From positions 1 through 23,511 of IMG/VR virus record IMGVR_UViG_3300020159_000664: DNA of 23,511 nucleotides; one strand, written 5' to 3'. A model generated the notes under the pieces. The model made no database searches, was not told where the DNA came from, and saw nothing but the letters and a program-made list of their open reading frames with translations. Origin of the DNA: a virus. Both the position numbers and the translations under genes were made by a program. Positions 5,771 through 22,846 of this stretch are shown here, one piece after another; position 1 is the stretch's first letter; each line of letters starts with the position of its first letter.

Positions 5771-6530
5771 TTTATTTGAAGGCGGTAATGTTTTTAAAGA
5801 CAATGCCGGAACAATATTAACCAAACGCATTAATCGAGCAGATGTTTTGCCTACTATTAAATGGTTAGAAACCGTTACAGGTTTAGAGCTTACTGATCAC
5901 CTGCTAGGCACAACAGGCAAGAAAGAAACCAGCGGCGACCTAGACATTGCCATTGATGCCAATGAAGTAAACAAAGATGAATTCGCTGCCAAGTTGGGTG
6001 AGTACATTAGCAAGCAGGGCAGTGATCCTAAACAGTGGATTAAAAAGAGCGGAGTTTCAGTACATTTTAAAACTCCCATCAAAGGTGACGAAGCCAACGG
6101 TTATGTCCAGTCAGATTTTATGTTTGGAGAGCGTGAGTGGATGAAGTGGTCAATGACTGGCGGACGTGAAGGATCAGAGCTTAAAGGTGCCCACCGTCAC
6201 GTTATCCTAGCCAGCATTGCTAAGACCAAAGGCATGAAGTGGAGTTTTCAAAACGGATTGATGAATCGTGACACTAACGAAGTGATCACTAAAGATCCTA
6301 ATGAGATTGCCAAGAAACTCTTAGGGCAAACAGCTACACCTAAAAATCTTCAAGACCCTGAAGCAATCATCGATTACATTATCAAATTACCCAACTACGA
6401 AGAACTAGTAGCAGATGCTAGAACAACTCTTGCTAGAGACGGAGTTGAATTGCCCGTATCCGGACAAGTTGAAAGTTATACCCCTGGTACCAATGCGTGG
6501 TTCCGTAAGATGATTGAGATTGTTAGATGA
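5763..6530 (+). CDS. Nucleotidyltransferase-fold protein 1
   Basis: A 255-aa protein with the signature of the DNA polymerase beta-type nucleotidyltransferase fold. HLLGTTG supplies the Gly-rich turn (around residues 47-52), SGDLDIAID gives the metal-binding Asp59-x-Asp61, and the third carboxylate is Asp118 in VQSDFMF. A helical C-terminal region follows. These enzymes move a nucleotide monophosphate onto a hydroxyl on RNA, protein or small molecules; the acceptor cannot be told. The N-terminus MTDLFE-G fits Ile/Leu-x-Glu cleavage after residue 6. The Gly-Ser of the classical motif is Gly-Thr here. The next gene overlaps (ATGA at 6527) and encodes a related enzyme sharing the VQ-x-DFM strand, so the two may be ancient duplicates. 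Confidence 0.8.
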   Translation: MTDLFEGGNVFKDNAGTILTKRINRADVLPTIKWLETVTGLELTDHLLGTTGKKETSGDLDIAIDANEVNKDEFAAKLGEYISKQGSDPKQWIKKSGVSVHFKTPIKGDEANGYVQSDFMFGEREWMKWSMTGGREGSELKGAHRHVILASIAKTKGMKWSFQNGLMNRDTNEVITKDPNEIAKKLLGQTATPKNLQDPEAIIDYIIKLPNYEELVADARTTLARDGVELPVSGQVESYTPGTNAWFRKMIEIVR

Positions 6531-7543
6531 GAGCATTTGAGTTTATAGTAGAAGGTGGCTGGGACACAACCTTAACACAAGGTACTGTTCTAAAGCCTGC
6601 TGCTGTGGCTCGAGCATTAGAAGTTGTTGACAAGTTTGTTGTTGACTTTAACGATTATTTGAAGGCCAAAGGAATAGGACCAGTACAACGTGGCAAGCCT
6701 ACTGGTAGCAGTGCTTACCATGAGCGAGATCAAGAAGAAGATCCAGACAAAGTCTACGGCGACGTTGACCTACAGATGATTGCTCCGCCTGTAGAAGGCA
6801 AGAGCTACGGACAATTCTCAGCATATTGGAATACGCTAGCAGATGAATTTGTCAAAACAGGTGCTGCTCCTTATGTAGACAATACTGAAAGCAAGCCTGG
6901 TCATCCTATTGTAAACATAGGTGACAGTGACTATGTACAAATTGACTTTATGTGGCATGAGCCAAAGATGGCCGACTGGGGTGCTACTCGTGTAACACCA
7001 GAGCGTGGAGTTAAAGGATTGTTATCTGGCAACATGTACTCGGTTACTGGTGAGATAATGGATCTAAGTATCCAACATGCTGGTGTACAATTAAAAGTTG
7101 TTGACAATCAACGTGTGTCCTTTAGCAAACAAAAAGACACAACAACAGTAACCGTTACTACAAACCCTAAGACTTGGATCTATGATATCTTTAAATATCA
7201 AGCAGAACAGATGGGAGTAAATAATCCCGTAGTTGATCCGTTACTAAAGGCCAACCCGGGTACTGACATCGCTGATGTTAAGATCAGTGTAATGGCCAAC
7301 GGTATTAAAGGTTTGGCCAAGAGCTTTGAAGCTAATAAGATGTTAGGGCAAGGTGACCTTGCTAAGTTTTCATCGGCTGATGAATTCCTAGCACAGTGGA
7401 TGAATCGTTACGAAGAAAAAGCAATAATTGATGTCAACGCTAAGAAGCGTGACAAAGCAGAAACACCAGAAGCCAAGGCTCGTGCTGAAAGCGATAGAAA
7501 GAAAGTCTTACAGGGTCTTGAAATGGTTAAAGGATTATTTTAA
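6527..7543 (+). CDS. Nucleotidyltransferase-fold protein 2, head-targeting-like N-terminus
   Basis: A 338-aa protein with a second, more complete nucleotidyltransferase active site: Gly60-Ser61-Ser62 in KPTGSSAY, Asp79-x-Asp81 in YGDVDLQM, and Asp140 in VQIDFMWHEP. An insert rich in Asp/Glu (HERDQEEDPDK) sits between the first two motifs. The C-terminal half is helical with a Lys/Glu-rich end (VNAKKRDKAETPEAKARAES). The N-terminus MRAFEFIVE-G closely parallels the T4 internal-protein capsid-targeting sequence (MKTYQEFIAE) and ends in Ile-Val-Glu. The gene after it starts with nearly the same leader. Substrate unknown; the ligase-like protein downstream suggests nucleic-acid end processing. 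Confidence 0.82.
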   Translation: MRAFEFIVEGGWDTTLTQGTVLKPAAVARALEVVDKFVVDFNDYLKAKGIGPVQRGKPTGSSAYHERDQEEDPDKVYGDVDLQMIAPPVEGKSYGQFSAYWNTLADEFVKTGAAPYVDNTESKPGHPIVNIGDSDYVQIDFMWHEPKMADWGATRVTPERGVKGLLSGNMYSVTGEIMDLSIQHAGVQLKVVDNQRVSFSKQKDTTTVTVTTNPKTWIYDIFKYQAEQMGVNNPVVDPLLKANPGTDIADVKISVMANGIKGLAKSFEANKMLGQGDLAKFSSADEFLAQWMNRYEEKAIIDVNAKKRDKAETPEAKARAESDRKKVLQGLEMVKGLF

Positions 7544-8664
7544 TGAGAGCGTTTGAATTTTTAACAGAGTCTAAAGTTGGTCGTGAACTTCAACACGCAG
7601 AAGATCTCATTGTGGTGGACGGATCAAAAGGGGCTCTTGAAGCCTTAGACGAACTAGCTGCTATGGCCAAGAATGTTGACGATGTTACTGTTAAATGGGA
7701 TGGCTCTCCAGCGGTGTACTTTGGTCGTAATGAAGCGGGGGCGTTTGTGCTTACTGACATTGCGGGCTTTGGTGCTAAAGGTTATCAAGGAAAAGTTACC
7801 AGTGCTGACGATCTAGAAAACATGTTACTAAGTCGCGGCAAAGAAGTCAATGATTCACGTAGACAGTTTGCCGGTGCTATGAAAGGTTTATGGGATCAAT
7901 TCTCACAAATGATTGAGCCCAACTTCCGCGGCTATATCAAAGGCGATCTATTGTATTATACACAACCGCCAAAAGATCCTAGTGGAGACTATGTGTTTAC
8001 ACCTAACACAGTAACTTACCATATTCCTACTGATTCAACTATTGGTAAAAGAATAGCTCAGAGTACTGCTGGTGTAGCAGTACATCAATACATTGATCTA
8101 AACGGTAATTCAACAGCAGTTAAGCTACCAATGCGTGGCATCAAATCTCAGGGACCTGTGATGATCCAAGGTCCAGTAACTGTAAACGTATTGCCCAGCA
8201 TAGACGAAAATAAACTAAAATCTGTAAGACAGTATGTAACTAGTCGTGCTGGTGAAATTGATAAGTTACTAGATGACAATCAACTAGCCGCAGACAAGAT
8301 GGGCGACTTTAAAAATGTGCTTTACCGGTTTGTTAACGAACAAACAGACACAGGCAGTTTTACTGGTTTGAACAAACGTTTTCAAAGTTGGTTAAGTTCT
8401 GATCCTAAAGTTAGTGCTCCAAAGAAAGCAAAGATAGACGGATACATCAAAGCACATGCTGGTGCGTTTGAAGCATTGTTTACGGTCATCGAACAGATCA
8501 TGGCCATCAAGGATGACATTATCGATCAACTAGATCAACAGGCAGAAGTTAGATCTAGCATCGCCGGCAAGCGTGGTGGTGAGGGCTATGTTAAAGGATC
8601 TAGCAAGATCAAACTAGTACCTAGACTACACTTTACAGCAGCAAATCGAGCCAAAACTCGCTGA
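7543..8664 (+). CDS. Ligase-like covalent nucleotidyltransferase (possibly DUF6267-type), head-targeting-like N-terminus
   Basis: A 373-aa protein. VKWDGSPAVYFGRN contains the K-x-D-G of motif I of ATP-dependent DNA/RNA ligases and capping enzymes (Lys51 would be adenylated); GYIKGDLLY (130-138) sits where motif III/IIIa is expected; GGEGYVKG (345-352) and KIKLVPR (355-361) look like motifs IV and V. About 200 residues, mostly helical, separate motifs III and IV, more than in ordinary ligases. I believe the family is known in marine phages as an unassigned DUF. The leader MRAFEFLTE-S is almost identical to that of the preceding gene and ends in Leu-Thr-Glu. The ATG overlaps the previous TAA by one base. 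Likely substrate is nucleic acid ends, but unproven. Confidence 0.78.
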   Translation: MRAFEFLTESKVGRELQHAEDLIVVDGSKGALEALDELAAMAKNVDDVTVKWDGSPAVYFGRNEAGAFVLTDIAGFGAKGYQGKVTSADDLENMLLSRGKEVNDSRRQFAGAMKGLWDQFSQMIEPNFRGYIKGDLLYYTQPPKDPSGDYVFTPNTVTYHIPTDSTIGKRIAQSTAGVAVHQYIDLNGNSTAVKLPMRGIKSQGPVMIQGPVTVNVLPSIDENKLKSVRQYVTSRAGEIDKLLDDNQLAADKMGDFKNVLYRFVNEQTDTGSFTGLNKRFQSWLSSDPKVSAPKKAKIDGYIKAHAGAFEALFTVIEQIMAIKDDIIDQLDQQAEVRSSIAGKRGGEGYVKGSSKIKLVPRLHFTAANRAKTR

Positions 8665-10558: not shown

Positions 10559-11377
10559 ATGAAAACTACAGAAATTTTTAAAAGATCCGATGCTAAAAAG
10601 ATCAATGAAACAATCCAAAAAACATTTGGACAGCGTATTAGTTTTGAAAACTATAATCTAGATCAACTAGAAGACTCACGCAATAGACTAAGAACACAGA
10701 TCTATCAGTTTAAGCAAGCTTCGGGCTTTAACGAAACTTTAGAGAATGTTGATTACTCTCGTGCTCAGTGGATGCTAGATGCTATCAATGCTGAAATCGA
10801 AGAGCGTGGCGAAGTTGCTATGGAAAGCCCAGAAGGAAATCTACCAGAAACCCAAACAGGAGAAGAAATGAGTAATCAAGTTAGAGAAAGTGCTACAGAC
10901 AAAGCCAGTGCTGTAGTCACAGCAAAATCAATGGTTGACAGAGTTGGCCGTTGGATTGAAGATTTGGCACAGATGGAAAACGATCAGCTATTAGAACTAG
11001 GTGATGTTATCCGTGACGAAATGGGTCAAGAACAAGCTAAGGCATTTGTAAGCCAAGTTGCTCCAGCTATTCAGACTGCCCTAGCAACATTGAAAACAAC
11101 ACGCGAAGCACTGAGCTCAGGAGTGCGTGTACTATCCGGTGACGAGCAACCAACAGACATGCTTGGTGCTGAACCAACAGACGACATGGGCGGTGATATG
11201 GGTGATGACATGGGTGCTGCTCCAGCTGCTCCAGACGAAATGAACCTTGGCGATGAAATGCCACCAGAAGATGACTTTGCTGCTGCTGAACCAGCATCTG
11301 GTCCAGACGAAGCCGGCCGTGCTAAACGTGAAAGTATTAATCGCAGCAATCAACTATTAAAAGTTCTAGCAGGATAA
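10559..11377 (+). CDS. Acidic virion/scaffold-like protein
   Basis: A 272-aa protein. Residues 1-85 are helical (MKTTEIFKRSDAKKINE, then LDQLEDSRNRLRTQIYQFKQ), a pattern I recall from marine T4-like phages. Residues 100-190 are helical and Ala/Glu-rich. Residues about 198-255 are a low-complexity acidic tract rich in Asp, Met, Gly, Ala and Pro (DDMGGDMGDDMGAAPAAPDE), followed by a short basic helix ending LLKVLAG. No catalytic motif. Acidic disordered tracts of this kind fit scaffold or virion assembly proteins; the true role is unknown. Ile-Asn-Glu at 15-17 could be a cleavage site. The next gene starts on the last base of this stop (TAATG). Confidence 0.75.
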   Translation: MKTTEIFKRSDAKKINETIQKTFGQRISFENYNLDQLEDSRNRLRTQIYQFKQASGFNETLENVDYSRAQWMLDAINAEIEERGEVAMESPEGNLPETQTGEEMSNQVRESATDKASAVVTAKSMVDRVGRWIEDLAQMENDQLLELGDVIRDEMGQEQAKAFVSQVAPAIQTALATLKTTREALSSGVRVLSGDEQPTDMLGAEPTDDMGGDMGDDMGAAPAAPDEMNLGDEMPPEDDFAAAEPASGPDEAGRAKRESINRSNQLLKVLAG

Positions 11378-15022: not shown

Positions 15023-17350
15023 ATGAACGATAGCATTATAGTATTAAAAAGAAACGGATCCAAAGAGCCGCTGGATTTAGAAAAGTGGCAAGCACAAATA
15101 ACAAAAATATGTAGTGGGATAGCAGACGTCAGTCAGAGTATGGTTGAGATCAAGGCCAGTCCGCATTTCTATGATGGAATTACTACAAGAGAAATTGACG
15201 CAATAACTCTAAGAGCGATTGTTGATCTTATCGACGTAGAAAACAATCCCGATGTTGGTCATACAAATTATCAGTATGTAGCCGGCAAACAAAGATTATC
15301 AATGTTGAGAAAAGACGTGTATGGAAAATATGAGCCGCCGCATCTTTACGACATTGTAAAAACAAATGTAGCCACAGGGTTATACACTCCAGAACTTCTT
15401 GAATGGTACAGTGAAGAAGATTGGAATAAGATGGACGAAATTATTGACCATGCTAAAGACGAAGAGTATGGTTATGCTAGCATCGAGCAATTAATAGAAA
15501 AGTATTTGGTACGCAATCGTGCCACAAAGGAAATTTATGAAACTCCACAAATTCGTTACATGGTTGCGGCAGCAACTGTGTTCCATAAAGAAGAGCCAAA
15601 TAGCGCAAGAATGCGTTACATTAAAGAATACTATAGTGCGGCATCCGATGGTTTGTTTACTCTTGCTACACCTGTGCTTGCAGGGCTCGGCACTCCTACT
15701 AAACAGTTTAGTAGTTGTGTGCTTATCAGGAGTGACGACGATCTTGATAGTATATTCGCTTCTGGTGAGATGATGGCCAAGTATGCCAGCAAACGTGCCG
15801 GCATTGGTTTGGAGATTGGACGTCTACGTCCTTTGGGTAGTCCCATCAGAGGTGGCGAAATTATGCACACAGGCATGATACCTTTCTTAAAGAAGTGGTT
15901 TGGCGATTTGCGCTCGTGTTCACAAGGAGGTATTCGTAATGCTAGTGCTACTGTATTTTATCCTATTTGGCATCATCAGTTTGATGACCTTATCGTGCTT
16001 AAGAACAACCAAGGCACAGACGAAACCCGAGTCCGTCATATGGATTATGGGGTTGTGCTTAGTGCTTTCTTCTGGAGAAGATTCAAGAACAAAGAAAACA
16101 TAACTTTCTTTGACCCAAACGAAGTACCCGAATTATACGAATCATTTTACAAAAATACACAGCAGTTTGAAGAACTGTATGTCAAATATGAAAAGCGTCG
16201 TGACCTACGTAAAAAGGTCATGAGTGCTGAAGAAGTTTTCAAGGGTGGTATACTGAAAGAACGCACAGATACAGGTCGTATCTATTTGGTGTTTATTGAT
16301 AATGTAATGAATCAAGGACCATTTGATCCTGAGTATCACACGATATATCAGAGTAACCTGTGCTGTGAGATCTTATTACCCACACGTCCATTTAAAAGAC
16401 TCGATGACGATAGTGGTCGCATAGCGTTATGTACACTGGGGTCTATCAACTGGGGTGCGTTCCGGAACCCGGAGGATATGCGTAGAGCCGCAAGGATTCT
16501 ACAGCGTAGCCTGTGTAACATCCTTGACTACCAAGACTTCTTGTCGATACAGAGTAAACTCAGTAACGATGAGATACAACCGTTAGGCATAGGTGTTACT
16601 AATCTAGCCTACTGGCATGCCAAACGTGGATTACGTTACGGTGATAAAGATGCTCTAGCTGAAGTCAAAACTTGGATGGAACATCAGGCCTACTATCTAA
16701 CAGAAGCCACAGTTGACCTAGCCAAAGAACGTGGACCTTGTCAGCATAGCTCACATACACGATACGGCCAAGGTACATTCCCCTGGGAACTACGTGCTAA
16801 GGGTGTTAATGATCTAGCAGACTTTACACCTGAACTAGATTGGGAACCTTTACGCAAGGACATGAAACAATACGGTGTACGCAATGCTACATTGATGGCC
16901 ATTGCTCCGGTAGAGTCTAGCAGTGTTGTCATCAACTCAACCAACGGTATTGAAATGCCAATGAGTTTAATTTCAACTAAAGAATCCAAAGCAGGATCAT
17001 TTACACAAGTAGTTCCAGAATATCACAAGTTGAAGAACAAGTATCAACTAATGTGGGAACAGAAAGACTGTGATGGTTATTTGAAGACTGCCGCAGTACT
17101 ACAGGCCTATGTTGATCAAAGTATTTCAACAAACACATTCTACAATCCAGCACATTTTGCAGATCGTAAAGTTCCAACTACACTGATTGCTCGTAATCTA
17201 ATGAACTTCTTATATTGGGGCGGTAAAACATTCTATTACAGCCTAATTAATAAAGCAGGTAGTAAACAACTTGCTGAGGAAACTCCACCTATGGGATTAT
17301 CTCCAATTGACTTTGATGCTGAAGATGACTGTGAGAGCTGTAAGCTATGA
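15023..17350 (+). CDS. nrdA: Class Ia ribonucleoside-diphosphate reductase, large subunit
   Basis: A 775-aa RNR alpha subunit, reducing ribonucleoside diphosphates for phage DNA synthesis. Residues about 6-95 form an ATP-cone (VLKRNGSKEPLDLEKW). Active-site residues are in place: FSSC (Cys232), NLCCE (Asn445, Cys447, Glu449), the substrate loop PVESSSVVINSTNGIE, the radical-transfer Tyr738-Tyr739 in KTFYYS, and the C-terminal redox pair Cys770 and Cys773 in CESCKL. The frame is open from 14942, but the ATG at 15023 has GAGG five bases upstream and lies after a late promoter motif, so I start there. The stop overlaps the superoxide dismutase ATG (ATGA), and nrdB and glutaredoxin follow, forming one nucleotide-supply operon. 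Confidence 0.96.
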   Translation: MNDSIIVLKRNGSKEPLDLEKWQAQITKICSGIADVSQSMVEIKASPHFYDGITTREIDAITLRAIVDLIDVENNPDVGHTNYQYVAGKQRLSMLRKDVYGKYEPPHLYDIVKTNVATGLYTPELLEWYSEEDWNKMDEIIDHAKDEEYGYASIEQLIEKYLVRNRATKEIYETPQIRYMVAAATVFHKEEPNSARMRYIKEYYSAASDGLFTLATPVLAGLGTPTKQFSSCVLIRSDDDLDSIFASGEMMAKYASKRAGIGLEIGRLRPLGSPIRGGEIMHTGMIPFLKKWFGDLRSCSQGGIRNASATVFYPIWHHQFDDLIVLKNNQGTDETRVRHMDYGVVLSAFFWRRFKNKENITFFDPNEVPELYESFYKNTQQFEELYVKYEKRRDLRKKVMSAEEVFKGGILKERTDTGRIYLVFIDNVMNQGPFDPEYHTIYQSNLCCEILLPTRPFKRLDDDSGRIALCTLGSINWGAFRNPEDMRRAARILQRSLCNILDYQDFLSIQSKLSNDEIQPLGIGVTNLAYWHAKRGLRYGDKDALAEVKTWMEHQAYYLTEATVDLAKERGPCQHSSHTRYGQGTFPWELRAKGVNDLADFTPELDWEPLRKDMKQYGVRNATLMAIAPVESSSVVINSTNGIEMPMSLISTKESKAGSFTQVVPEYHKLKNKYQLMWEQKDCDGYLKTAAVLQAYVDQSISTNTFYNPAHFADRKVPTTLIARNLMNFLYWGGKTFYYSLINKAGSKQLAEETPPMGLSPIDFDAEDDCESCKL

Positions 17351-17925
17351 GTTTTAGTTTTATTAGAAACGTGCTGTTAGAAGGCAAGCCTGATAAGTTA
17401 GAAATCAAAGCCTTGCCTTACGATGTTGATGAACTTGATCCAGTTATATCAAAAGAAACAATTAACTATCACTATGGCAAGTTGGCCAAGACCTATGCTG
17501 AAAGATACAATGCCAATGAAGGTGATGCTACATTTAATGAAGCTGGTGTATTCTTACATAATATATTGTTTCAGCAATATCAAACACCTAAAAGTTCAAA
17601 CAAACCCACAGGCGATATTCTCGCCTTTATTGAAGAGCACCACAAGAGTTTTGACAAATTCAAAGAAGAGTTTGCCAAAGTAGCAATGGGTATACAAGGC
17701 AGTGGTTGGGTTTATCTTGCCAAAGACGGCAAGATTAAAACTATTAAAAATCACGAAATTAAGAAAGACATTGTGTTATTAATTGATTGGTGGGAACATG
17801 CGTGGGCATTAGACTATCAAGCAGACAAGAAAAAGTATTTAGAGAATCAATGGAAAATTATCAACTGGAATCATATAAATGAGCAAAGCACAATACAACT
17901 TAACAACAAAGACAGACTACCTTAA
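17347..17925 (+). CDS. Fe/Mn superoxide dismutase homologue with leader-like N-terminus
   Basis: A 192-aa protein of the Fe/Mn superoxide dismutase family, which converts superoxide to peroxide. LPYDVDELDPVISKETI marks the N-terminal domain; all four metal ligands are present: His42, His71, Asp147 and His151 (IDWWEHAW). Tyr50 matches the gateway Tyr34 of E. coli. GSGWVYL and the YLENQWKIINW end are typical. The second-shell Gln is absent: Gly67 stands at the FeSOD Gln position and His136 (KNHE) at the MnSOD one, as I recall for some archaeal and mycobacterial enzymes. The gateway His30 position is Leu46. Residues 1-13, MSFSFIRNVLLE-G, are extra to the family and end in Leu-Leu-Glu. It sits between nrdA and nrdB, overlapping both. 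Confidence 0.88.
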   Translation: MSFSFIRNVLLEGKPDKLEIKALPYDVDELDPVISKETINYHYGKLAKTYAERYNANEGDATFNEAGVFLHNILFQQYQTPKSSNKPTGDILAFIEEHHKSFDKFKEEFAKVAMGIQGSGWVYLAKDGKIKTIKNHEIKKDIVLLIDWWEHAWALDYQADKKKYLENQWKIINWNHINEQSTIQLNNKDRLP

Positions 17926-21520: not shown

Positions 21521-21549
21521 TTGACACACACACAAAAAGATGCTTAAAT
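21521..21549 (+). promoter_or_regulatory. Sigma70-like promoter for the csp-tmRNA unit
   Basis: A perfect TTGACA (21521-21526) is followed after 17 bases by TTAAAT (21544-21549), preceded by TGC (an extended -10). Transcription should begin near 21556, giving a leader of about 110 bases before the cold-shock gene. No ORF of note is seen in 21514-21666. Confidence 0.65.
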
Positions 21550-21666: not shown

Positions 21667-21870
21667 ATGACAACAGGTAAAGTAAAATGGTTTAATGAAA
21701 CCAAAGGTTTTGGATTTATTACTCCAGACGCAGGCGGTGAGGATTTATTTGCTCACTACTCACAAATTCAAGGCGGTGGATACAAAGTTCTACAAGAAGG
21801 ACAGAGTGTGCGTTTTGATGTAACAATGGGCATGAAAGGTAAGCAGGCTAGTAACATCCAGCCTGCCTAA
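21667..21870 (+). CDS. Cold-shock domain protein (CspA family)
   Basis: A 67-aa OB-fold nucleic-acid chaperone. [15 protein letters not shown] contains RNP1 (KGFGFI, 13-18), and DLFAHY (26-31) is RNP2; the end ([19 protein letters not shown]) matches the family closely, and length is standard. It binds single-stranded RNA or DNA in the cytoplasm and may aid translation or transcription antitermination. An AAAGGA ribosome site lies upstream. The leader is about 110 bases from a host-type promoter, as often seen for csp genes whose leader folds with temperature. The 22-aa ORF and tmRNA follow without a visible terminator, so they are probably cotranscribed. Confidence 0.95.
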
Positions 21871-21882
21871 GTAGGAATAAAA

Positions 21883-21951
21883 ATGAAAGCGTATGAATTT
21901 ATTGTAGCAGTTTTAATTGTTACATTTCTAGTAATACATTTCATTTTTTAA
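21883..21951 (+). CDS. 22-aa single-span hydrophobic peptide
   Basis: A frame of 22 codons with TAGGA seven bases before its ATG. It starts MKAYEF and continues as an unbroken hydrophobic helix (IVAVLIVTFLVIHFIF) that could span the inner membrane. The MKAYEF start echoes the MRAFEF leaders upstream, but there is no Ile/Leu-x-Glu and the rest is membrane-like. It lies twelve bases after the cold-shock gene and immediately before the tmRNA. It may be a real small membrane peptide or chance; no homologue is known to me. Confidence 0.45.
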   Translation: MKAYEFIVAVLIVTFLVIHFIF

Positions 21952-21954
21952 AGA

Positions 21955-22296
21955 ATTGTTGTAATCCCTTCCGAGTGAAGGCATGTTGGACGAGGGTTCG
22001 ATCCCCTCCAGGTCCACCAAAAGGAAATTTATGGAAAAAAGTGAATTGAAGTTGCGACAGATGTATATGCAGACTGCTAAGTCTATAGTAGCATTTATCC
22101 GAGCAAGATCTTTTGGACGTTGTTAAGTTTTCTTCTGATGGGCCTGACCAGGTTTCGACAGCGTGAGATAGCGGAGACGGCAACACGACAGCGATAGTCG
22201 AAAAAACTAAAAAAACGTAAACGCAAACGACGAACAGTTCGCATTAGCAGCCTAAACACTGCTTAGGGTAGGATATACCTCGTAACAGAAAATACC
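21955..22296 (+). ncRNA. ssrA: Circularly permuted (two-piece) tmRNA
   Basis: The acceptor segment comes first: T-arm GAGGG-TTCGATC-CCCTC (21992-22008), acceptor 3' strand CAGGTCC (22009-22015) and ACCA (22016-22019). After a 120-base spacer the coding segment starts at 22140 with GGGCCTG, which pairs with CAGGTCC over seven base pairs, including G3-U70, the alanyl-tRNA synthetase determinant. GGTTTCGACAG is the conserved D-loop region. The tag frame GCA to TAA (22223-22255) encodes ANDEQFALAA, ending in the ALAA ClpXP degron. CCTAA/TTAGG after the stop forms the following helix. This order is that of processed two-piece tmRNAs of alphaproteobacteria, some cyanobacteria and betaproteobacteria. 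The 5' end is approximate. It rescues stalled ribosomes with SmpB. Confidence 0.93.
22031..22126 (+). CDS. 31-aa basic ORF inside the tmRNA spacer
   Basis: Between the acceptor and coding segments of the permuted tmRNA lies a frame of 31 codons with AAGGA six bases before its ATG. The peptide starts MEKSELKLRQMYMQTAKSIV and ends RARSFGRC; it is basic (several Lys/Arg), helix-prone and has one C-terminal Cys. It fills most of the 120-base segment normally discarded on tmRNA processing. I know no homologue. It may be a genuine peptide translated from the precursor or chance coding; the good ribosome site and fit to the spacer favour the former moderately. Confidence 0.45.
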   Translation: MEKSELKLRQMYMQTAKSIVAFIRARSFGRC

Positions 22297-22323
22297 AAAA
22301 AGCGATCTTAGGATCGCTTTTTT
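22297..22323 (+). terminator. Intrinsic terminator of the csp-tmRNA unit
   Basis: AAAAAGCGATC (22297-22307) pairs with GATCGCTTTTT (22312-22322), loop TTAG, within a run of T to 22323. It lies about 40 bases after the tag stop and probably also defines the 3' end of the tmRNA precursor. Confidence 0.9.
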
Positions 22324-22324
22324 C

Positions 22325-22353
22325 TTGCTCTCTCCGTACAAACACTATATACT
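22325..22353 (+). promoter_or_regulatory. Sigma70-like promoter for the outer-membrane barrel gene
   Basis: TTGCTC (22325-22330) and TATACT (22348-22353) are separated by 17 bases, directly after the tmRNA terminator and 40 bases before the ATG at 22394. Confidence 0.5.
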
Positions 22354-22393: not shown

Positions 22394-22846
22394 ATGAAAA
22401 ATATCTTAATCGCATCAATCTTGGCAGTGGCCGCTTTTTCAGCAAACGCTGTAGAAGTCGGTGTAAATGGTAGCTATGACTTTGGAGCACCAACTGAACG
22501 AGCAGGCGCCGGTATCACTATCGGTGAGAAGTTTGGTAAGTTTGGCGTAACAGCAGGTTTTGATCGTTATACAAAAACTACCGATCAAGACAAGTATAGT
22601 CTAGTTGGTTCTTACGATGTTGCTACAATTGCCAAAACTACTGTTGCTGTTAAGGCAGGTGCTGCGTATCTTAGCAACACTAGTGGTGTGTCAGACGGTT
22701 ATGCCGCATTAGTTGGTGTTGGCGCAAGCTACCCTATTACCAAAGCTGTTGCGTTGACAGCAGACTATCGTTACCAAGCAGGTCAATCTAGAGTTAATCA
22801 GTTTGACGGCAGTACTGTAGCATTTGGTGCCAAGTACTCATTCTAA
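22394..22846 (+). CDS. Outer-membrane beta-barrel protein
   Basis: A 150-aa exported protein. Residues 1-19 are a signal peptide (MKN, hydrophobic core, SANA cleavage before Val-Glu-Val). The mature part shows alternating polar and hydrophobic residues in about eight strands (VGVNGSYDF, GAGITIGEKF, FGVTAGFDRY, YSLVGSYDVA, TVAVKAGAAYL, AALVGVGASYP, VALTADYRYQ, TVAFGAKYSF) and ends with Phe, the BAM recognition signature. It is the size of OmpX/Ail/Lom or the OmpA barrel. The start at 22394 follows AAAGGAAAC; the frame extending to 22367 would bury the signal peptide. Likely displayed on the infected cell, perhaps to block receptors or alter adhesion. Own promoter and terminator. Confidence 0.9.
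   Translation: MKNILIASILAVAAFSANAVEVGVNGSYDFGAPTERAGAGITIGEKFGKFGVTAGFDRYTKTTDQDKYSLVGSYDVATIAKTTVAVKAGAAYLSNTSGVSDGYAALVGVGASYPITKAVALTADYRYQAGQSRVNQFDGSTVAFGAKYSF

Follow-up and report, generated by a model that had tools for sequence, protein, structure and literature searches.

Permuted tmRNAs, with the acceptor piece encoded upstream of the coding piece, are found in bacteria and in phages. The myophage Melnitz of Methylophilales OM43 (MZ577097) carries a phage-borne permuted two-piece ssrA gene, as does the virus described here. In the Melnitz paper, this tmRNA from an isolated phage was grouped by the authors with alphaproteobacterial lineages, and 53 two-piece tmRNAs were counted in isolate phages, 50 of them marine or aquatic (PMC9004378). 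Inserts have been described in the segment between the two pieces of permuted tmRNAs, namely one tRNA-Ala gene and one repetitive element, with no mention of protein genes, and 23 group I introns of tmRNA are known (PMC11915505).

At 23,511 bases, the window analysed here takes in a whole virus record of IMG/VR. The ORFs searched included nrdA, nrdB, a PAAR protein, a 2OG-Fe(II) oxygenase and one virion-structural match, and no T4 hallmark structural gene (capsid, portal, terminase type) was seen among those searched in this 23.5-kb fragment. An Fe/Mn superoxide dismutase gene (17347-17925; Sod_Fe_C, E 5.2e-24) lies between nrdA and nrdB. A sequence-only reading had proposed a permuted two-piece tmRNA at 21955-22296 and had suggested a covariance-model check, which was run. 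ARAGORN called a permuted tmRNA at 21927-22346 on the plus strand, with the tag ANDEQFALAA and the coding part at 22223-22255. The Rfam model beta_tmRNA (RF01850) aligned over its whole length, to 21903-22323 (175.9 bits, E 2.9e-55, cut-off 84), and tmRNA_permuted (RF04321) matched at 21957-22255 (134.5 bits, cut-off 47); PK1 and PK2 are not encoded in the models. RF01850 was retained as the best model of its clan, beta over alpha and cyano. With ARAGORN and both Rfam models in agreement the proposal was borne out, and the window carries a real, complete phage permuted tmRNA gene, spanning about 21952-22323. The coordinates proposed earlier gave the right locus and were slightly short at both ends.

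All parts of the gene lie on the plus strand. The acceptor (3') piece (21952..22019, 5' end approximate), placed by the RF01850 and RF04321 alignments and the sequence, contains the T-stem (21992-21996/22004-22008), the acceptor 3' strand CAGGTCC (22009-22015) and ACCA (22016-22019), with the encoded CCA at 22017-22019. The coding (5') piece (22140..22296, end approximate), placed by Rfam and the sequence, begins with the acceptor 5' strand GGGCCTG (22140-22146), which forms seven pairs with CAGGTCC, G3-U70 included. Its tag reading frame (22223..22255 by ARAGORN) has the resume codon GCA and encodes ANDEQFALAA before a stop, a tag with a protease-type AA end. The T-arm and CCA upstream, the coding segment downstream, the seven acceptor pairs with G3-U70 and the tag had all been noticed before; the first two were read in both the sequence and the Rfam alignments, the pairs are those given above, and the tag was the same in the ARAGORN call. 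A terminator-like hairpin with a T run, AAGCGATC-TTAG-GATCGCTT-TTTT, follows at 22297..22323 according to the last stem of RF01850 and the fold; the palindrome was listed on the minus strand by a scan. A porin-like outer-membrane protein is encoded directly downstream of this terminator (22397-22846), with a weak Porin_2 match just below the cut-off.

Other phage permuted tmRNAs were collected from IMG/VR by four pattern scans and one search by a neighbouring gene. At least 364 loci were parsed, at least 298 of them with distinct intervening segments, and all totals are lower bounds. Because patterns were used to seed the sample, and two of them required TGAT before G1, TGAT and class frequencies are not free of bias. 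All counts rest on ARAGORN calls and a custom parser. The final parser gave small bonuses for G-U at 3-70, TGAT and helix pairs, and the G-U and helix claims are therefore based on a bonus-free parse. Among the matches listed, the parse without the G-U bonus found all seven acceptor pairs in 173/174 phage relatives and G-U at 3-70 in 172/174. Among the 298 unique phage tmRNAs in the matches listed, acceptor pairing was complete in 297, with differing acceptor sequences, and 288 tags ended in AA. TGAT preceded G1 in 267/298 unique segments of these matches, a set partly selected for TGAT. The permuted architecture had been called unusual for a phage described as T4-like, a view that did not hold: Melnitz has one, isolate phages have the 53 counted in PMC9004378, and IMG/VR has at least 364 loci. 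Permuted tmRNAs, mostly unannotated, were also found in Stenotrophomonas, Xanthomonas, Pseudomonas and roseobacter phages. Those of Stenotrophomonas phage Mendera (L556), two Xanthomonas phages (L557 and L558) and Pseudomonas phage SM1 (L559) are unannotated in their records; the hosts of these four phages have a one-piece tmRNA.

The tag was also compared with those in the bacterial genomes scanned. The permuted tmRNAs of Rhodocyclaceae mostly have the similar tag ANDEQFAIAA, and bacteria with exact ANDEQFALAA, from several genera, have a one-piece tmRNA. No bacterial pairing of ANDEQFALAA with the permuted form was found among the genomes scanned, L242 excepted, and the nearest tag was ANDEQFAIAA. 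L242 is a short contig of a gammaproteobacterial MAG whose permuted tmRNA resembles phage tmRNAs and has the segment sequence of L048; it probably comes from a phage and ended up in the MAG bin. Assignment of a host from the tag was dropped on these grounds. The gene is therefore of phage lineage, and its tag names no host. The earlier idea of a betaproteobacteria-like tag stood as far as the covariance model and the look of the tag are concerned, and fell short in that the exact tag occurs in no bacterial permuted tmRNA scanned. The window gene fits best among the beta-type tmRNAs that form a phage lineage. Its blastn coverage against the phage collection was just 16%, around the T-arm.

The two pieces are separated by an intervening segment of 120 nt (22020..22139), which is an insert in both Rfam alignments and is expected to be removed from the precursor. 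The sequence-only reading made no mention of this long segment or of its ORF. The segment opens AAAGGAAATTTATGG, in which an SD (AAAGGA, 22020-22025) immediately past CCA precedes the ATG of a 31-codon ORF (22031..22126, plus strand). The ORF encodes MEKSELKLRQMYMQTAKSIVAFIRARSFGRC and stops with TAA 13 nt before G1; the TGAT motif that ends the segment (22136..22139) pairs with ACCA in the fold except for one C-A mismatch. No homologue of the 31-aa product was found in Pfam, in PHROGs or by a degenerate core pattern. The window (L001) fits a pattern common to phage segments, with an SD shortly past CCA, a start ATG at position 9-26 and 20 or more open codons, and it is this group pattern, rather than homologues, that marks its ORF as putatively coding. 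Since the segment appears to carry a small protein gene here and in many related phages, the precursor RNA would have two uses. We therefore consider it likely that the locus is a working tmRNA whose precursor doubles as the mRNA of a nested micro-gene.

This pattern was used as the strict rule for nested ORFs in 146 non-redundant phage segments of at least 75 nt among the matches listed. The data showed that 49 of the 146 segments carried such an ORF, compared with 1.1 in dinucleotide shuffles (maximum 5 in 300) and none in their reverse complements. When SD and ATG were given, 49/50 segments of these matches were open for at least 20 codons, compared with 11.4 (maximum 19) when the part after ATG was shuffled. 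Chance is excluded as the origin of the nested ORFs for the group as a whole. A looser open-ended ORF count in the matches listed gave 104/191, with 25 on the reverse strand, and this higher background kept it from being the headline figure. For the window alone, it could be supposed that an ordinary phage permuted tmRNA has a mere spacer in which an ORF arose by chance. The ORF has no homologue, about two thirds of the long phage segments among the matches listed have no ORF by the strict rule, and a body-only shuffle leaves 23% of the segments with SD and ATG open for 20 codons. However, the SD, ATG position, helix and stop placement of the window resemble those of coding segments, and the TAA together with the identical downstream AAGTTTTCTT closes the 65-aa nested ORF of L314 too. 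A chance ORF is thus rather unlikely.

We also analyzed the products of the nested ORFs. The 49 strict ORFs of the matches listed fell into 38 protein clusters, with a strongly hydrophobic segment in 16, and many of the micro-proteins look like single-span membrane peptides by a crude, hydropathy-based call. Pooled pN/pS was 0.30 for the most diverged pair from each of 11 families, and in families tested frame by frame the lowest ratio was in the coding frame for most pairs, family F4 being an exception. Several nested-protein families are shown to be under purifying selection. Conservation of the nested protein in relatives was seen for at least 11 other families, and no relative was found for the window's ORF. 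The L021 nested protein is DUF2061 (Pfam, E 3.5e-20) and that of L440, which has a weaker SD and is outside the strict 49, is DUF6356 (E 2.7e-8); a DUF2061-like frame in the alpha-type phage tmRNA L498 was just under the cut-off (22.3 vs 23.1 bits). The tmRNAs of the L436, L497 and L532 group are also alpha-type. Two overlapping frames per segment were seen in L436, L456, L467, L489, L497, L506, L514, L519, L532, L547 and L551; the second frame of the L436/L497/L532 type encodes a conserved membrane peptide, MKNPLV..SICADI.., which starts at position 42 and ends at the TGA before G1. The segments of other isolates (roseophages and Stenotrophomonas, Xanthomonas and Pseudomonas phages) look non-coding, as do most phage segments, and the nested gene is therefore optional. 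L139, L206, L143, L336, L534 and other long segments have no ORF and often have internal hairpins.

The SD and the stop of the window ORF lie in a helix. Its 5' strand AAGGAAATTTA (22021..22031, plus strand) comprises the SD AAGGA and the start codon's A, and its 3' strand TAAGTTTTCTT (22124..22134, plus strand) includes the TAA stop, so that the end of the ORF pairs with its SD and start codon. The helix was found in the MFE fold and by covariation across phages, with segment position p pairing with -(p+4) from G1; in the window it is 11 bp long. In the MFE fold of the whole precursor it joins the acceptor stem and the CCA/TGAT region in a single hairpin that is nearly continuous, with z -2.9 for 22009-22146. 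In the bonus-free parse, the longest helix averaged 10.4 pairs, compared with 5.5 (sd 0.22) when the 3' ends were swapped among phages, and the coding segments alone gave 9.9 pairs compared with 7.1 (sd 0.33). Per-position covariation involved many pair types, and pairing fell from 91-93% to 39-63% in slid registers. The SD started at segment position 2 or 3 in 43/49 ORFs of the matches listed. An SD-like word was present within the first 8 nt of 19/50 bacterial segments, none of which had a nested ORF; the nested genes may have found a ready SD in the AAGG of the stem. Since the SD and start codon lie within a helix that extends the acceptor stem, and helix and frame share nucleotides, the nested ORF might be a leader peptide whose translation, and not its product, controls tmRNA maturation through ribosomes that hold the precursor open. 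Such a leader is quite unlikely, as it needs no conserved protein, whereas amino-acid sequences are selected in several families and the nested proteins with Pfam domains reach 69 aa.

The ends of the 49 ORFs, all among the matches listed, were of three kinds: 19 ended in the TGA of TGAT just before G1, 15 at an earlier stop, the window (at -13) among them, and 15 were open past G1. The last kind would be odd if the excised segment were the message. A self-limiting micro-gene would account for them, in which the cut leaves a message without a stop, the ribosome is rescued and the peptide is tagged by the same tmRNA; E. coli arfA follows a comparable self-limiting logic. The ORFs open across G1 include those of the MFxxWHW, MEQWD and MKYTALC families and that of Melnitz, and within a family the stops beyond G1 fall at different points (+27, +54 and +90), conservation being confined to the portion inside the segment. 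However, the 34 other ORFs have a stop before G1, and the idea is inapplicable to the window unless trimming removes its stop; as an account of this locus it is very unlikely. The non-stop message as a general rule was rejected for the same 34/49. A wider form of the two-use reading is put forward tentatively: the excised spacer would be a general phage expression site for small genes, the helix supplying the SD and often the stop, with translation tied to maturation, and in a subset the excised piece would be a non-stop message that the same tmRNA could tag.

For a precursor that serves both as tmRNA and as message, we infer that the segment is excised, that the ORF is translated in vivo, that folding competes with translation and that the micro-protein has a function. 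Once folded, the precursor would form one hairpin from the acceptor stem through the CCA/TGAT region to the segment helix, in which the SD is buried. The tRNA-processing enzymes of the host would cut at CCA and at G1 and free the segment, and the two pieces would form the tmRNA, which would act in trans-translation with host SmpB and alanyl-tRNA synthetase during infection. The micro-protein would be made by a ribosome that initiates at the nested SD while the 3' strand is still untranscribed or once the hairpin has opened; such a ribosome would block the precursor fold, so that the same RNA would be either tmRNA precursor or message. Where an ORF reaches TGAT or G1, its ribosome would have to unwind the acceptor stem. 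It is extremely improbable that the tmRNA has become a decoy or is decaying, with the nested gene as the sole remaining use of the locus: the host presumably has its own tmRNA and smpB was not recognised among the window ORFs examined, but pairing kept across differing acceptor sequences (297/298 in the matches listed) and AA-ending tags (288/298) mean that tmRNA function is being maintained.

The neighbourhood of the gene was examined in the window and its relatives. A promoter-like TTGACA-N17-TTAAAT (21521..21549, plus strand), read from the sequence, is the putative head of a transcript of cspA, a micro-ORF and the tmRNA; it was missed by a consensus scan that demands A at -10 position 2, and a similar TTGACA...TTAAAT precedes cspA or the tmRNA in L305 and L312-L316. 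The cold-shock protein gene cspA (21667..21870, plus strand; 67 aa; phrog_729, E 2.2e-21) is also next to the tmRNA in L302 and L314-L316. The micro-ORF (21883..21951, plus strand) translates to 22 aa, MKAYEFIVAVLIVTFLVIHFIF, with one hydrophobic segment, and ends at the 5' edge of the tmRNA. Homologues occur at the same place in L302 (MKAYHFIVTVLIVIFVLVHVFM) and L314 (MKTYQFIVTVLIVVFVLIHVFM), and a 22-aa peptide resembling it is nested inside the intervening segment of L174. Similar short N-termini (MRAFEF..., MRLTEF..., MRIFEI..., MKAYEF...) were seen in ORFs 6527-7543 and 7543-8664 and in those with 5' ends at 11377, 11868 and 21883, as if a common leader were used.

The gene order oxygenase, cspA, (22-aa micro-ORF), tmRNA is common to the relatives found via the oxygenase gene. 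L302, whose oxygenase is the most similar (99%), has a 24-nt non-coding hairpin segment in a different tmRNA. L314 and L316 have tmRNA halves that are 97% and 98% identical, with a segment of 223 nt and a 65-aa ORF in L314 and a segment of 89 nt and a 24-aa ORF in L316. The halves of the window and L314 are 90% and 95% identical, whereas the segments are 44% identical, differ in length (120 vs 223) and hold different ORFs; the window's segment is unrelated in sequence to those of orthologous tmRNAs. Near-identical halves with differing segments indicate therefore that whole cassettes were exchanged while the tmRNA halves persisted. Judged by these alignments, the intervening segment is shown to be a cassette site with replacement in related phages.

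The spacer of permuted tmRNAs would thus be a hot spot of gene exchange, with phage micro-proteins of a class that can escape annotation, as in Melnitz. If the two-use reading is true, a structured RNA gene and an mRNA share one precursor with the SD in the stem that flanks the cut sites, which would be a new gene nesting and a new coupling between ribosome rescue and the production of small proteins by phages, and the retention of long intervening segments in these phages would be accounted for. The idea is testable in an isolated phage.

The Melnitz locus is similar in detail. Its segment of 142 nt has the SD TTGGAGAAG, a 41-codon frame open at G1 and the same kind of closing helix, and the nested product is MFKWLSKTRLVVITRDYFRERNRKADAKIPKYLSGTRSVYD..., also given as MFKWLSKTRLVVITRDYF... 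The nested ORF is unannotated in GenBank MZ577097, where only SsrA is given, and no mention of it was found in the accessible part of PMC9004378. In L446, a relative of Melnitz, the nested protein is kept with an in-frame insertion of 24 nt and a pN/pS of 0.38. The two loci differ in the tag, which is ANDNYVPVDYALAA in Melnitz and ANDEQFALAA in the window, and in the end of the ORF, which has no stop before G1 in Melnitz but stops 13 nt before it in the window.

The betaproteobacterial permuted tmRNAs (RF01850, e.g. Azonexus/Dechloromonas) share the architecture, the best covariance model and the similar tag ANDEQFAIAA, and have a short intervening hairpin at the same position, often with AAGG near its start. 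However, the bacterial segments were mostly 4-70 nt (median 28 nt), compared with 120 nt in the window, and an SD-led ORF of 20 codons was found in 0/50 of them; these 50 parsed controls include the longest ones seen among 398 sampled Pseudomonadota genomes. No report of a protein gene in the spacer of a permuted tmRNA was found in the open-access literature searched. The phage permuted tmRNA is thus of a known kind, and what makes it a variant, not found described in that literature or in the accessible part of the Melnitz paper, is the micro-gene nested between its two pieces. Homing-endonuclease genes occur inside self-splicing introns, and they are likewise protein genes housed in RNA-gene sequence that maturation removes. 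The phage loci differ in that there is no intron, removal is predicted to occur by tRNA-processing cuts and no recognised nested protein is an endonuclease. The unusual segments of PMC11915505 likewise hold a gene or element inside a permuted tmRNA, but they are single cases, whereas in the phages studied here the site is occupied by dozens of protein genes unrelated to one another.
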